From NCBI RefSeq assembly GCF_000733775.1, contig NZ_JPOE01000002.1:1922001-1986000 (forward strand): a stretch of 64,000 nucleotides of DNA. The letters are read 5' to 3'. A program made the translations under genes and the position numbers. Source of the stretch: Thiomonas sp. FB-Cd. Lineage in GTDB: Bacteria; Pseudomonadota; Gammaproteobacteria; Burkholderiales; Burkholderiaceae_C. This document shows, one piece after another, positions 3,063-22,510 of this stretch. The notes beneath the pieces were generated by a model. The model was not told the origin of the DNA and ran no database searches. It worked only from the letters and a program-made list of their open reading frames with translations. Numbering within the stretch: the first letter of the stretch is position 1; the number at the start of each line of letters is the position of its first letter.

Positions 3063-4448
3063 TCAGCGACCGCCATCGCGTCGTGGCGCACCCGAGGTGC
3101 CGCGGCGGCCGGCATCGCGCCGAGGTGCGGCGGCACCATCACGGCGTCCACTGCCATGTGCATGACCGGTGGCATCGCTGCGCCCGTGACCATGGCCTGC
3201 CAAGGCCCGGCTCGGAGACTCGCCGCGGCGTGCACCGCCACCCGAGGGCTTTCCACCGCCGATGGTCGTACGGCCGACGCGAATGGGCTGCGCGCGCTCC
3301 TTGGGATCCGGTTCGAACCCAGCGATCACGTGACGGTCAATCGGGCGACCGATGAGGTTTTCGATGTCGCGAAGAAAGCGCAACTCATCCACGCAAACCA
3401 GGGAGATCGCCTGGCCTTCGGCCCCCGCGCGCCCGGTGCGTCCAATCCGATGCACGTAGTCTTCCGGCACATTGGGCAACTCGTAGTTCACGACCATCGG
3501 CAATTGGTCGATGTCGATCCCGCGAGCTGCGATGTCCGTGGCCACCAGCACCTGCAGCTTGCCACTCTTGAATGAGGCCAGCGCACGGGTCCGCGCACCT
3601 TGACTCTTGTTGCCGTGGATGGCGTCGGCGCCGATGCCGTCCGTGTTGAGCTGTTCAGCCAGTCTGTTGGCACCATGCTTGGTGCGCATGAAGACCAGGA
3701 CCTGGTACCAGTTGCTCTCGCGAATCAGGTGCGACAGCAGTTCACGCTTGCGCTCGCGCCCCACCGGATGCACGGACTGTCGCACGGTCGCCGCGGTCGC
3801 ATTGCGACGCGCCACCTCGATCACCGCCGGCTTGTTCAACAAGCCGTTGGCCAGGGTCTTGATCTCGTCTGAGAAGGTCGCCGAAAACAGCAGGTTCTGG
3901 CGTTGCTTGGGCAGCAGCGAGAGCACGCGTTTGATGTCATGGATGAAACCCATGTCCAGCATGCGATCCGCCTCGTCGAGCACCAGGGTATTGATGCCGG
4001 AGAGGTTGAGCGTACGCTGGCCGTGGTGGTCAAGCATGCGTCCGGGTGTCGCCACGACGATATCCACGCCGCGCTTGAGGGCGTCGATCTGCGGCTGCAT
4101 GCCCACGCCGCCGTACATCACCATACTGCGCAGCTGCAACTGCCGGCCGTAATCGCGCACGCTTTCCGCCACCTGGGCAGCAAGCTCGCGCGTGGGAACC
4201 AACACGAGCACGCGCGGAATGACGCGTCCCTGCGCGTCACGCGCCTGCTCGCTCTGGCTCAGGCGATGCAGGATGGGCAACGTGAAGGCGGCCGTCTTAC
4301 CCGTTCCGGTTTGCGCCGCAGCCAGCAGATCGCCACCGGCAAGGACTGCCGGAATGGCCTGCGCCTGAATGGGGGTGGGGGTGGTGTAGCCCTGCGCCGA
4401 CACGGCACGCAGGATAGGCTCGGCAAGTCCGAGTTGATCAAAGTTCAT
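3063..4448 (-). CDS. rhlE: DEAD-box ATP-dependent RNA helicase RhlE
   Basis: This is an RNA helicase of the RhlE subgroup, 461 residues, acting in the cytoplasm on structured RNA and ribosome assembly intermediates. Visible motifs are the Q-motif region near residue 25, Walker A AQTGTGKT (45-52), PTRELA (about 85-90), DEAD (158-161), SAT, and the [10 protein letters not shown] motif VI. The C-terminal tail is rich in Gly, Arg and Ser, as in RhlE proteins that bind RNA non-specifically. The start chosen gives the typical MNFDQLGL beginning. The frame is open for about 55 further codons upstream, but that stretch has no helicase similarity. Confidence 0.93.
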
Positions 4449-4654
4449 GGAGTCTTTCGAAGCCGCGTGCCACAAGGCTTGGCGGCAGGTGCCTGGCAAC
4501 CGCTCGACCGGGAGGACGAACACCAGCTTGTTGCAAGGCTGAGCCGGAACATTCCGGCAGGAGGTCAGATTGACAGGGTGTGCAGAACTGGGCAGCACAC
4601 CGCAGAGGCACACTATAGCAGGGATTGCCGCAGTTTGCGCTATGCATCAGACGC

Positions 4655-4712
4655 CGCATGTGAATGCTCCCGCGACTAAGCGCCACGCGCTGTCGTCGCG
4701 GGATGCGCGGTC
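4655..4712 (-). repeat. Solo copy of the tnpB-element end hairpin
   Basis: This stretch aligns with the end of the tnpB element at 20762-20818. Both share CTCCCGC, then CTAAGCGCC, a short loop and CGCT, with the same spacing. Both fold into a nested hairpin: an inner AGCGC/GCGCT stem and an outer stem. In the outer stem one C-G pair in the tnpB copy is G-C here, a compensatory change. The copy lies directly downstream of the eamA stop codon and has no tnpB attached. It may be the residue of a decayed element, or a free-standing structured RNA or 3' end of the eamA transcript. No function can be assigned from sequence alone. Confidence 0.5.
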
Positions 4713-4719
4713 GAATTGC

Positions 4720-5667
4720 TCAAAGCCGCGCCCGCGTCAGCGCGTAAATGCCCGCCAGCACGAGAGCCGTGCCAAGGAGCAGCCAAGGCGTAAACGGCTC
4801 ATGCAGCAGCCAGACGCTCAGTGCGATGGTCGACAGCGGACCGAGCATTCCCGTCTGCGCCGTGAGTGCCGGGCCGATGCGCTCGATCGCCATCATCACC
4901 ATCAGAATCGGCGCCACGGTGCACACGGTCGCGTTGAGCAGGGATAGCCACACCACCGGCATGGGCACCCACACCGCCTGCCAGGGCTTGATCAGCGCGA
5001 ACTGGGCAATGCAAAAAAAACTGGCCACAACACCCGCCCACCCGGCCAGGCGCAGCGACCCCAGTTCCCCCACAAGCTTGCCGCTCATCAGGAGATACAC
5101 CGCATACGACAGCGCACTACCCAGCACCAGCAAGGCGCCCAGCACCGCGTGCGCGCCCTGCAGGCCGATTTCCTGGGCGAACACCACCAGCACGCCCGCG
5201 TAGCTCAATGCGATGGCTGCAACATGGCGCCATCCCACGCGCCGGCCAAAGACCATGGCCCCGAGCAGCAGCACGAAGCTCGGGTTGAGGTACAAAATGA
5301 GCCGCTCGAGGCTGGCCGTGATGTCCTCCAGACCCATGAAGTCGAGCATGCTGGCGGCGTAATACCCCGTGAACCCCAGCACGAGCACGATGCGCGCCTG
5401 CGACGCGGTGAGACTTGCCTTGCCGCGCCCGGCCCACCACGCCATGACTGCGAACAACGGCAGGGCGAACAGCATGCGGTAAAAAATGAGCGTGACCGCG
5501 TCGATCGGCCATTCGTAGATCAGCTTGGCGAGGATCGCCTTGCCCGAAAATGCAATCGCTCCGGCCGAGGCCAGCAGCAGGCCCGCTCGCAACGCTCCTG
5601 GACGCGAGGCGGTGCTGGTGGGTGCGCGTATGGGGACTGCGGGCGACGGAGGCGATGGCATGGACAT
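4720..5667 (-). CDS. DMT/EamA family transporter
   Basis: This is an inner-membrane permease of the drug/metabolite transporter superfamily, about 315 residues from this start. It has roughly ten hydrophobic segments arranged as two EamA repeats; the first segment begins near LLLASAGAIAFSGKAIL. The substrate cannot be told from sequence; relatives export amino acids, purines or other metabolites. An upstream in-frame ATG at 5715, preceded by AAGG, is an alternative start that adds 16 residues. The gene is divergent from the RidA-like gene. It ends next to the solo tnpB-type hairpin. Confidence 0.82.
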   Translation of the reverse strand: MSMPSPPSPAVPIRAPTSTASRPGALRAGLLLASAGAIAFSGKAILAKLIYEWPIDAVTLIFYRMLFALPLFAVMAWWAGRGKASLTASQARIVLVLGFTGYYAASMLDFMGLEDITASLERLILYLNPSFVLLLGAMVFGRRVGWRHVAAIALSYAGVLVVFAQEIGLQGAHAVLGALLVLGSALSYAVYLLMSGKLVGELGSLRLAGWAGVVASFFCIAQFALIKPWQAVWVPMPVVWLSLLNATVCTVAPILMVMMAIERIGPALTAQTGMLGPLSTIALSVWLLHEPFTPWLLLGTALVLAGIYALTRARL

Positions 5668-5768
5668 GGGCGCGGCGTGAAGGGCGAAAAAACAGGGAAC
5701 GGCATCGGCGCACATGCGCCTGGCCTTGCTTATGCTATGGGGTTTTCCACAAACGAGCCCGAGCTGCC

Positions 5769-20625: not shown

Positions 20626-20657
20626 GGCGCCATCATGTCTCTGATGCACATTGATGC
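20626..20657 (+). repeat. Left arm of inverted repeat around the tnpB/fic island
   Basis: This matches the reverse complement of 22479-22510 in 27 of 32 positions, including an uninterrupted run ATGTCTCTGATGCACA. A 10-base direct repeat CCTGAAGGCG overlaps its outer side (20620-20629) and recurs at 22510-22519. Confidence 0.6.
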
Positions 20658-20730: not shown

Positions 20731-20762
20731 GTATTTCGCTGCATCATGATGCAGCGAAATAC
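20731..20762. repeat. Perfect 32-base palindrome downstream of tnpB
   Basis: All 32 bases are self-complementary, with no loop; the half-site reads GTATTTCGCTGCATCA. It lies 18 bases beyond the tnpB stop codon and directly next to the hairpin shared with the solo copy at 4655-4712. It could be a cruciform, an end structure of the element or an RNA hairpin of the omega RNA. Perfect symmetry over this length suggests it is recent or selected. Confidence 0.8.
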
Positions 20763-20880
20763 GTATGAACTCTCCCGCCACTAAGCGCCTGACGGCGCTG
20801 TAGTGGGGGTTTCGCGGGTCACAGGCTTGGACTTGCCACGTTGCCGGGTCAGAGGTTTCGGTCTCGCCGCCACGCCCGTC
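20763..20880 (-). ncRNA. Candidate omega RNA (reRNA) overlapping the tnpB 3' end
   Basis: TnpB nucleases use an RNA made from the 3' end of their own transcript. Here the end of tnpB and the bases after it form a nested hairpin: outer CCACTA/TAGTGG and inner AGCGCC/GGCGCT. After the hairpin the minus strand reads GCGGGAGAGTTCATACG, a plausible scaffold end. The same structure is kept, with a compensatory change, in the solo copy at 4655. Extents are approximate, and expression is not shown. Confidence 0.4.
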
Positions 20881-22478: not shown

Positions 22479-22510
22479 GCACGATTGTGCATCAGAGACA
22501 TAATGGCGTC
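22479..22510 (-). repeat. Right arm of inverted repeat around the tnpB/fic island
   Basis: This is the partner of 20626-20657 (27 of 32 positions pair). It ends ten bases before the aminotransferase stop codon and includes a small GCAC-GATT-GTGC hairpin. Confidence 0.6.

Follow-up and report, generated by a model that had tools for sequence, protein, structure and literature searches.

The short hairpin that directly follows eamA in the window (the whole stretch of 64,000 nucleotides of Thiomonas sp. FB-Cd that was analysed) is, with a probability of roughly nine in ten, a terminal-only (PATE- or MITE-like) derivative of an IS605 element of the tnpA148-tnpB477 type, inserted 3' of a TTGAG at the eamA stop. 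It has the anatomy of two fused ends, its insertion is precise when compared with element-free sites, there are many sister copies, here called solos, and full parents with tnpA are present in the same genome. The solo looks ordinary, without sign of being a kept guide RNA. Its parts, its gene neighbours and the tnpB element 16 kb away are listed in Table 1.

Table 1. Positions in the window of the solo, the adjacent genes and the tnpB element at 20.8 kb.
Feature	Position	Strand	Basis
Terminal-only IS605 element, 59 nt (left end, one hairpin, right end)	4660..4718	-	Stretch absent from the aligned G021, G003, G020 and G025 sites; leave-one-out model; BLASTN
Left-end arm CAATTCGACCGCGCAT	4703..4718	-	Like the left end of the full IS605 elements in L061, L062 and L063
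Nested hairpin, common to left and right ends	4669..4702	-	Folds; counted pairs
Right-end tail AGCATTCAC	4660..4668	-	Same as the right-end tail of L061-L063
Target pentanucleotide TTGAG, one copy, no duplication	4719..4723	-	Also in the element-free G021 and G003 sites
eamA stop codon TGA, within TTGAG	4720..4722	-	Sequence and ORF 4720-5715
eamA (EamA transporter)	4720..5715	-	Pfam PF00892, E=2.3e-30
rhlE-like DEAD-box helicase	3063..4448	-	Pfam PF00270, E=8.8e-49
Right-end hairpin of the tnpB-428 element (other family), to which the sequence-only reading compared the solo	20765..20830	-	Model R2, 48.5 bits, E=3.8e-11; tail GAGTTCAT
tnpB, 428 aa	20781..22067	-	Pfam PF01385 and PF07282; NCBIfam guided_TnpB 217.2 bits, cut-off 100

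Anatomy of the solo

The eamA gene ends in ...CGG CTT TGA, with TTGAG at 4723-4719; then come 59 bases (4718-4660) that end in GCATTCAC, and then the eamA-rhlE spacer. On this minus strand the order is left end, one common hairpin, right end. A covariance model (R2) built from nine other solos, with the window copy left out, finds the solo at 4660-4723 (minus strand) with 75.1 bits and E=2.4e-18; the nested hairpin of the sequence-only reading is real and non-random. The fold of 4660-4723, taken as single-stranded DNA, beats all 200 shuffles on the minus strand (z=-3.16) and 195 of them on the plus strand (z=-2.68). With more flank included (4645-4722) the RNA fold is weaker, with z=-1.85 on the minus strand (11 of 200 shuffles as good) and z=-2.21 on the plus strand (5 of 200).

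ORFs and Pfam also confirm that the hairpin comes right after eamA and before rhlE, with no nuclease gene adjacent to it. Rfam, run over the whole 64-kb window, finds two tRNAs only and no family at the hairpin. Two things had been overlooked: the solo reaches as far as a recognisable left end with its target site (up to 4723), and the nearest relative found is a different IS605 element instead of the tnpB copy at 16 kb distance.

Full-length relatives in the same genome

The core pattern of the hairpin has 17 exact matches in the whole genome (4.39 Mb, 6 contigs), 13 with CTCCCGCC and 4 with CTCCCGCG. The first version is that of the tnpB at 20.8 kb, and the second is that of the window solo and three others. 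Each of these three is the right end of a complete IS605 element about 2 kb long, at C2:781.7k, C2:920.6k and C5:970.7k. The ORFs, as listed in one copy, encode a Y1 transposase of 148 residues and a divergent TnpB-type protein of 477 residues, and all three copies encode both TnpA148 and TnpB477, at 97-100% identity.

TnpA148 is an IS200/IS605 transposase (PF01797, E=7.7e-37; NF033573, 116.7 bits, cut-off 55). A scan of named genomes gave 69 loci with relatives of it, the best with 65% identity over most of the protein and one, a partial match, with 79% in a Rhodoferax MAG. TnpB477 is probably TnpB-type, a label that rests on PF07282 (28.3 bits, cut-off 26.3, E=2e-6), on TIGR01766 (35.9 bits, cut-off 32) and on a guided_TnpB match of 65.8 bits, which is under the cut-off of 100. 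It has no match to PF01385 at 0.001 and none among PDB sequences at E<=0.001.

In the full elements the left end has the order TTGAG-CAACTCACCGCGCATC-hairpin and the right end the order hairpin-CGGGAGCATTCAC, and the two hairpins are almost alike. BLASTN aligns the solo with 57 nt of the full left end (87.7%, 65.3 bits), TTGAG and hairpin included, and with 48 nt of the full right end (85.4%, 54.5 bits), which run from the hairpin to TTCAC; the two matches overlap within the solo hairpin. The solo-trained model R1 finds the three full left ends over all 64 positions, with 59.5 bits each, and the three right ends with 39.3, 39.1 and 32.6 bits. Since the solo matches a left end and a right end by way of one hairpin, the ends of an element of the tnpA148/tnpB477 kind have been joined in it. 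By R1 and BLASTN, then, it has a near-terminal palindrome related to an IS605-type transposon, with both parental ends fused and the core missing, as in a terminal-only PATE. Against the fused-end reading it counts that identity between the solo and the present full copies is just 85-88%, which means that none of them is the exact parent.

The parent's two ends carry near-identical hairpins, and a deletion between them would leave a left end, one hairpin and a right end, here 59 nt, which would then lie 3' of the TTGAG at the eamA stop without target duplication. Single-strand transposition by Y1 enzymes inserts without target duplication. It is about equally likely that the short form jumped to the eamA site and that a full element landed there and then lost its core in place. 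The 14 solo sites known from three genomes fit either short-form jumping or repeated core deletion, and no site was seen where one species has the full element and another a solo. We infer that the hairpin matters as a DNA site recognised by a Y1 transposase, and that TnpA could still move the solo in trans. The suggestion in the sequence-only reading of a decayed element comes close: an IS605 element has been cut down to its fused ends.

The insertion site in related species

Ten loci from relatives were compared with the window site. In four of them only the eamA side or only the rhlE side matched, which makes them uninformative; in all six congeners that could be read (G021, G003, G020, G025, G018 and G008) the site is without the element. 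The eamA-rhlE junction aligns in G021 and G003 (90.6%, gap counted, and 95-98%), with G020 and G025 more distant, while G018 and G008 have no element after the eamA stop. In both G021 and G003 the downstream flank begins immediately after TTGAG, apart from a difference of one or two bases.

Other solos can be compared in the same way. Those at C2:210195 and C2:351906 are absent from the matching places in G021, where the second site is TTGAG and the first, which counts against the reading, is TTGAC. At C2:1250736 the right flank alone can be aligned, and G021 has TTGAG directly before that flank. Flank differences of one to a few bases remain between element-free and occupied sites. From the element-free sites, the boundaries of the element lie between TTGAG and CAA... 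and directly after ...TTCAC, with no target duplication; this is the precise insertion seen in terminal-only PATEs. Since the element is missing in six of six congeners, the insertion at the eamA site is young.

It is unlikely, on the same comparison, that the hairpin is a domesticated 3'-end structure of eamA that serves mRNA stability or termination. The idea draws on the position of the solo directly after the eamA stop, and on a second solo (C2:969767; L066:4768-4833) directly after the stop of a PAS-GGDEF gene, where TGA again lies within TTGAG; the Borrelia report proposes a regulatory role for IS605 stem loops located at the 3' ends of genes (PMC2775950). However, the structure is absent from the same gene end in all six congeners, and it has no T run: the search for intrinsic terminators (GC-rich stem followed by a T run) gave no site in 4400-4900. 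A promoter scan found none. There is also a simple reason for solos right after stop codons, as insertion there spares the gene, and selection against gene disruption leaves insertions at such places as well.

Solos elsewhere in the genus

An exact pattern of the canonical solo gave just two copies in 28 genomes of the genus, both in the source genome; it was too strict and was replaced by a covariance model. At E<=0.01, R1 has matches in 10 of the 28 genomes, and matches of at least 37 bits in G000 (the source genome), G021 and G003 only, among 150 first-look candidates scored per genome. The 30 matches of at least 37 bits consist of three left and two right ends of full elements, a tnpB-428-type palindrome at C2:760069 and 24 others. 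With two lower G003 matches (34.8 and 34.7 bits) these 24 make 26 solo candidates, six of which were set aside: four adjoin or belong to tnpB-428-type right ends (G021 C212, G000 C2:1118159, G003 C267 and G003 C123), and two are orthologous copies with a tnpB-428-like end (G021 C161b and G000 C5:979000).

What is left is at least 20 solos at 14 distinct sites in G000, G021 and G003, a lower bound because 150 first-look candidates were scored per genome and lower-scoring matches were left out. Judged from the flanks, five of the 14 sites are common to two or three species. The exact TTGAG start is kept in 11 of the 20 solos and the exact TTCAC end in 10. In 150 genomes of the family, searched with stricter filters, two have a match: the source genome and, weakly (38.8 bits), a genome of another genus.

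The loci around the 20 solos, with at least 1.8 kb of flank on each side except to the left of G021 C252 (53 nt) and G021 C151 (196 nt), contain no match to tnpA148 or tnpB477, and the same search detects both genes in the full-element loci. Matches like tnpB-428 are found in five solo loci, the nearest at G021 C161a, 141 nt from a truncated tnpB-428 gene. Matches like tnpB lie 0.6 to 4.0 kb from the solos G000 C2:1288909 (31% identity), G021 C156, G003 C28 and G000 C2:1388130, and at a distance of 17 nt from C2:1250736 there is a segment of about 100 nt with a match to tnpB-428-type ends in relatives. A close TnpA148 is absent from G021 and G003, where the best match has 36% and 42% identity, so the solos of these two species look like remains of earlier activity.

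Change in solos after insertion

Solos that are common by descent allow us to ask whether the hairpin is kept. Seven ortholog comparisons gave no paired compensatory change: seven pairs are broken in one partner, and each remaining pair is either unchanged, altered on a single side, broken in both partners or gapped. In six ortholog pairs, 29 of 243 stem positions have changed (11.9%), as have 24 of 147 other element positions and 252 of 1659 flank positions (15.2%, flanks of up to 150 nt on either side). The difference between stems and flanks is not significant (p=0.21). In a structure-fitted alignment of the six pairs, which favours pairing, 13 of 142 stem positions have changed vs 42 of 244 other element positions. 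It should be kept in mind that G021 C156 is in two of the six pairs and that the orthology of G021 C89 and G003 C314 rests on weak flanks (89 of 267 flank positions differ). No ortholog of the window solo itself was found.

Orthologous solos thus seem to change in a neutral-like way, about as fast as their flanks. The stems have changed slightly less than the flanks or the other element positions, which leaves room for a weak constraint that may act on them, and nothing requires one. The sequence-only reading had looked to a covariance-model search for many solo copies with covariation as support for a maintained RNA. The search (28 genus and 150 family genomes) yields the solos, at least 20 of them, and covariation at the level of the family, but none between orthologous solos.

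The solo as a guide RNA

That the solo is an RNA kept after tnpB was lost, and usable by the TnpB 16 kb away, had been suggested from the sequence. Such a guide RNA would be part of the read-through transcript of eamA; a TnpB would take it up in trans, and the sequence beyond 4660 would be the guide against the empty TTGAG site. The orientation is right for this, as the right-end tail is downstream in the direction of eamA; tnpB477 genes are present in the genome; and TTGAG resembles TTGAT, described as the target motif of TnpB in ISDra2 (PMC8612924).

In that account of ISDra2, the RNA bound by TnpB is about 150 nt long and consists of the 3' end of tnpB, the right end and about 16 nt of flank (PMC8612924). 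Here the full element, folded over the 150 nt of its right end, forms further stems upstream of the terminal hairpin (z=-3.72). In the solo, 16 nt of left end stand where this upstream part would be, so that instead of a scaffold of about 150 nt for a TnpB guide RNA (omega RNA or reRNA), including the 3' end of tnpB, just the last hairpin and the tail are present. In addition, the window site is young, solos common by descent show no compensatory change, and there is no match to tnpA148 or tnpB477 in the loci around the solos. A kept guide RNA is therefore quite improbable. Use of the solo in trans by any TnpB seems unlikely from the sequences compared, and it would be least likely for the tnpB at 20.8 kb, which has a different end family. 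The suggestion of an RNA kept for that TnpB was not borne out, given the other end family, the young site, the lack of compensatory change in seven comparisons and the left-end sequence upstream of the hairpin.

A more far-reaching version, to which we give as little chance, is that the 59-nt unit is a minimal parasite of a parasite: mobilised in trans by the resident Y1 TnpA, it would, whenever an upstream gene is transcribed through it, yield a short right-end RNA, and the guide in this RNA, the flank beyond 4660, would let TnpB477 cut the empty TTGAG site, which would restore the mini-element.

The tnpB at 20.8 kb and the base-pair switch

The solo was first compared with the right end of the tnpB-428 element at 20.8 kb, and the two do align: R2 finds that end with 48.5 bits, and an 18-base core is exact at both places, for which 0.24 chance matches are expected in the window even with three mismatches allowed. 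The switch from C-G to G-C on both sides of the outer stem, taken in the sequence-only reading as a sign of selection on the RNA fold, is present as well (plus-strand G4674/C4697, model columns 27/58).

To see what the switch means we used an alignment of 29 rows (20 solos, six full-element ends and three tnpB-428-type ends), in which 27 rows are distinct and two are identical to others. Columns 27/58 hold G-C in 23 rows, G-U in one and C-G in three, and all three C-G rows are tnpB-428-type ends with a GAGTTCA tail. The switch is thus a difference between two element families, not a compensation at the solo site, and does not point to selection on an RNA fold there. At columns 25/60, a C-C mismatch is found in the parents, from which a single base separates the window copy (G-C) and likewise C2:1250736 (C-G).

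As a structure, the hairpin of the family is supported by the alignment. Over the 27 distinct rows, 88.4% of cells are paired, and six of 12 pairs have changed at least once on both sides; shuffles have a mean of 2.5 and are as high in 3 of 500, and sliding the structure by one to three columns gives one to four pairs with two-sided change. The hairpins of IS605-type ends are substrates of Y1 transposases, and covariation at the level of the family is therefore expected.

It is very improbable that the solo is a truncated right end of a tnpB-428-type element. The BLASTN match to the right end at 20.8 kb covers 47 nt at 80.9%, but its 35.6 bits are fewer than the 65.3 (left end) or 54.5 bits (right end) obtained with the tnpA148/tnpB477 element, and the tail, target and left arm of the solo are all those of the other family. 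By its tail (GCATTCAC) and its target (TTGAG), the solo belongs to another end family than the 20.8-kb tnpB, whose tail is GAGTTCAT.

Some further observations concern the tnpB-428 elements themselves. The source genome (G000, 4.39 Mb) has 103 TnpB-like matches. Of these, 34 are close to full length and have 83-92% identity to the window copy, and one of the 34 (C5:1348078) adjoins a Y1 TnpA (C5:1349393) with 49% identity to TnpA148. In the window the tnpB-428 element lies between 30-nt inverted repeats (20628-20657 and 22479-22508) that are 87% complementary, and the motif of these repeats, with up to three mismatches, occurs in this one pair only in the genome. Perhaps they belong to a single-copy non-autonomous element that took up tnpB, or to a palindromic region that was split by the tnpB-428 element. 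Two or three bases beyond the tnpB-428 right end, where its guide would be read, there is a perfect 32-nt palindrome (20731-20762, two arms of 16 nt, no loop). At C2:760061-760112 (L028) and C2:2473734-2473788 in G000, tnpB-428-type hairpins match the model on both strands, and the L028 hairpin has its tail mirrored at the other end (ATGAACTCTC...GAGAGTTCAT).

The last alternative, a REP palindrome moved by a RAYT-type transposase, can appeal to a short intergenic hairpin repeat, to the presence of a Y1-type transposase and to a sub-threshold match of TnpA148 to the REP transposase model (31.9 bits, cut-off 80), but it is almost certainly wrong and was rejected on the anatomy and the transposase models, as TnpA148 has 116.7 bits with the IS200/IS605 model (cut-off 55), the unit is asymmetric, its left end being distinct from its right end, its target is TTGAG, its parents are full-length IS605 elements, and no GTAG or CGTC, the tags that REP sequences have at the stem foot, can be read in the sequence.

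Relation to known elements

Both free-standing IS605 stem loops and terminal-only PATEs of 52 bp are already in the literature (PMC2775950, PMC3119063). In Haloquadratum walsbyi, terminal-only PATEs of 52 bp (HqIRS46, ISHwa23 derivatives) are described as arising from IS605-type elements by repeat-mediated deletion of the core, with mobility of the short form suspected and not settled (PMC3119063). Like the solo, they are about 50-60 bp long, with IS605-type ends fused by deletion between near-terminal palindromes; like the solos, they are without target duplication, and some copies are common to strains and others strain-specific. Unlike them, the solo is not in a haloarchaeon, its end sequences and target differ, and its divergent tnpA-tnpB parent is still present in the genome as three full copies.

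Borrelia plasmids, too, are described as carrying free-standing IS605 stem loops, of which some have base-pair compensatory changes and some lie at the 3' ends of genes (PMC2775950). In that report the loops next to lipoprotein genes are said to be conserved in their RNA form, whereas solos common by descent here show no compensatory change.

ISDra2 of Deinococcus radiodurans, the model of the family, is described as excised near TTGAT by a single-strand peel-and-paste mechanism (PMC8612924). Like the full element here, it has a Y1 TnpA, a TnpB and a TTGA-type pentanucleotide (TTGAT) at its insertion site. Its right end supplies the guide RNA, in contrast to the solo, which has no genes and is without most of the right-end RNA of about 150 nt described there.

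Significance

A double base change between two hairpins can mark two families instead of RNA selection at one site, and some caution is needed when such changes are read as compensatory. The solo illustrates how the ends of IS605 elements are left as tiny precise insertions in a genome laden with TnpB (103 TnpB-like matches). If the 59-nt unit did guide TnpB477 to the empty site, it would be a case of homing by a unit without any gene of its own. Should the short form be mobile or act as a guide in trans, a genome with full parents and solos, together with sister species in which some of them are missing, would lend itself well to a test.
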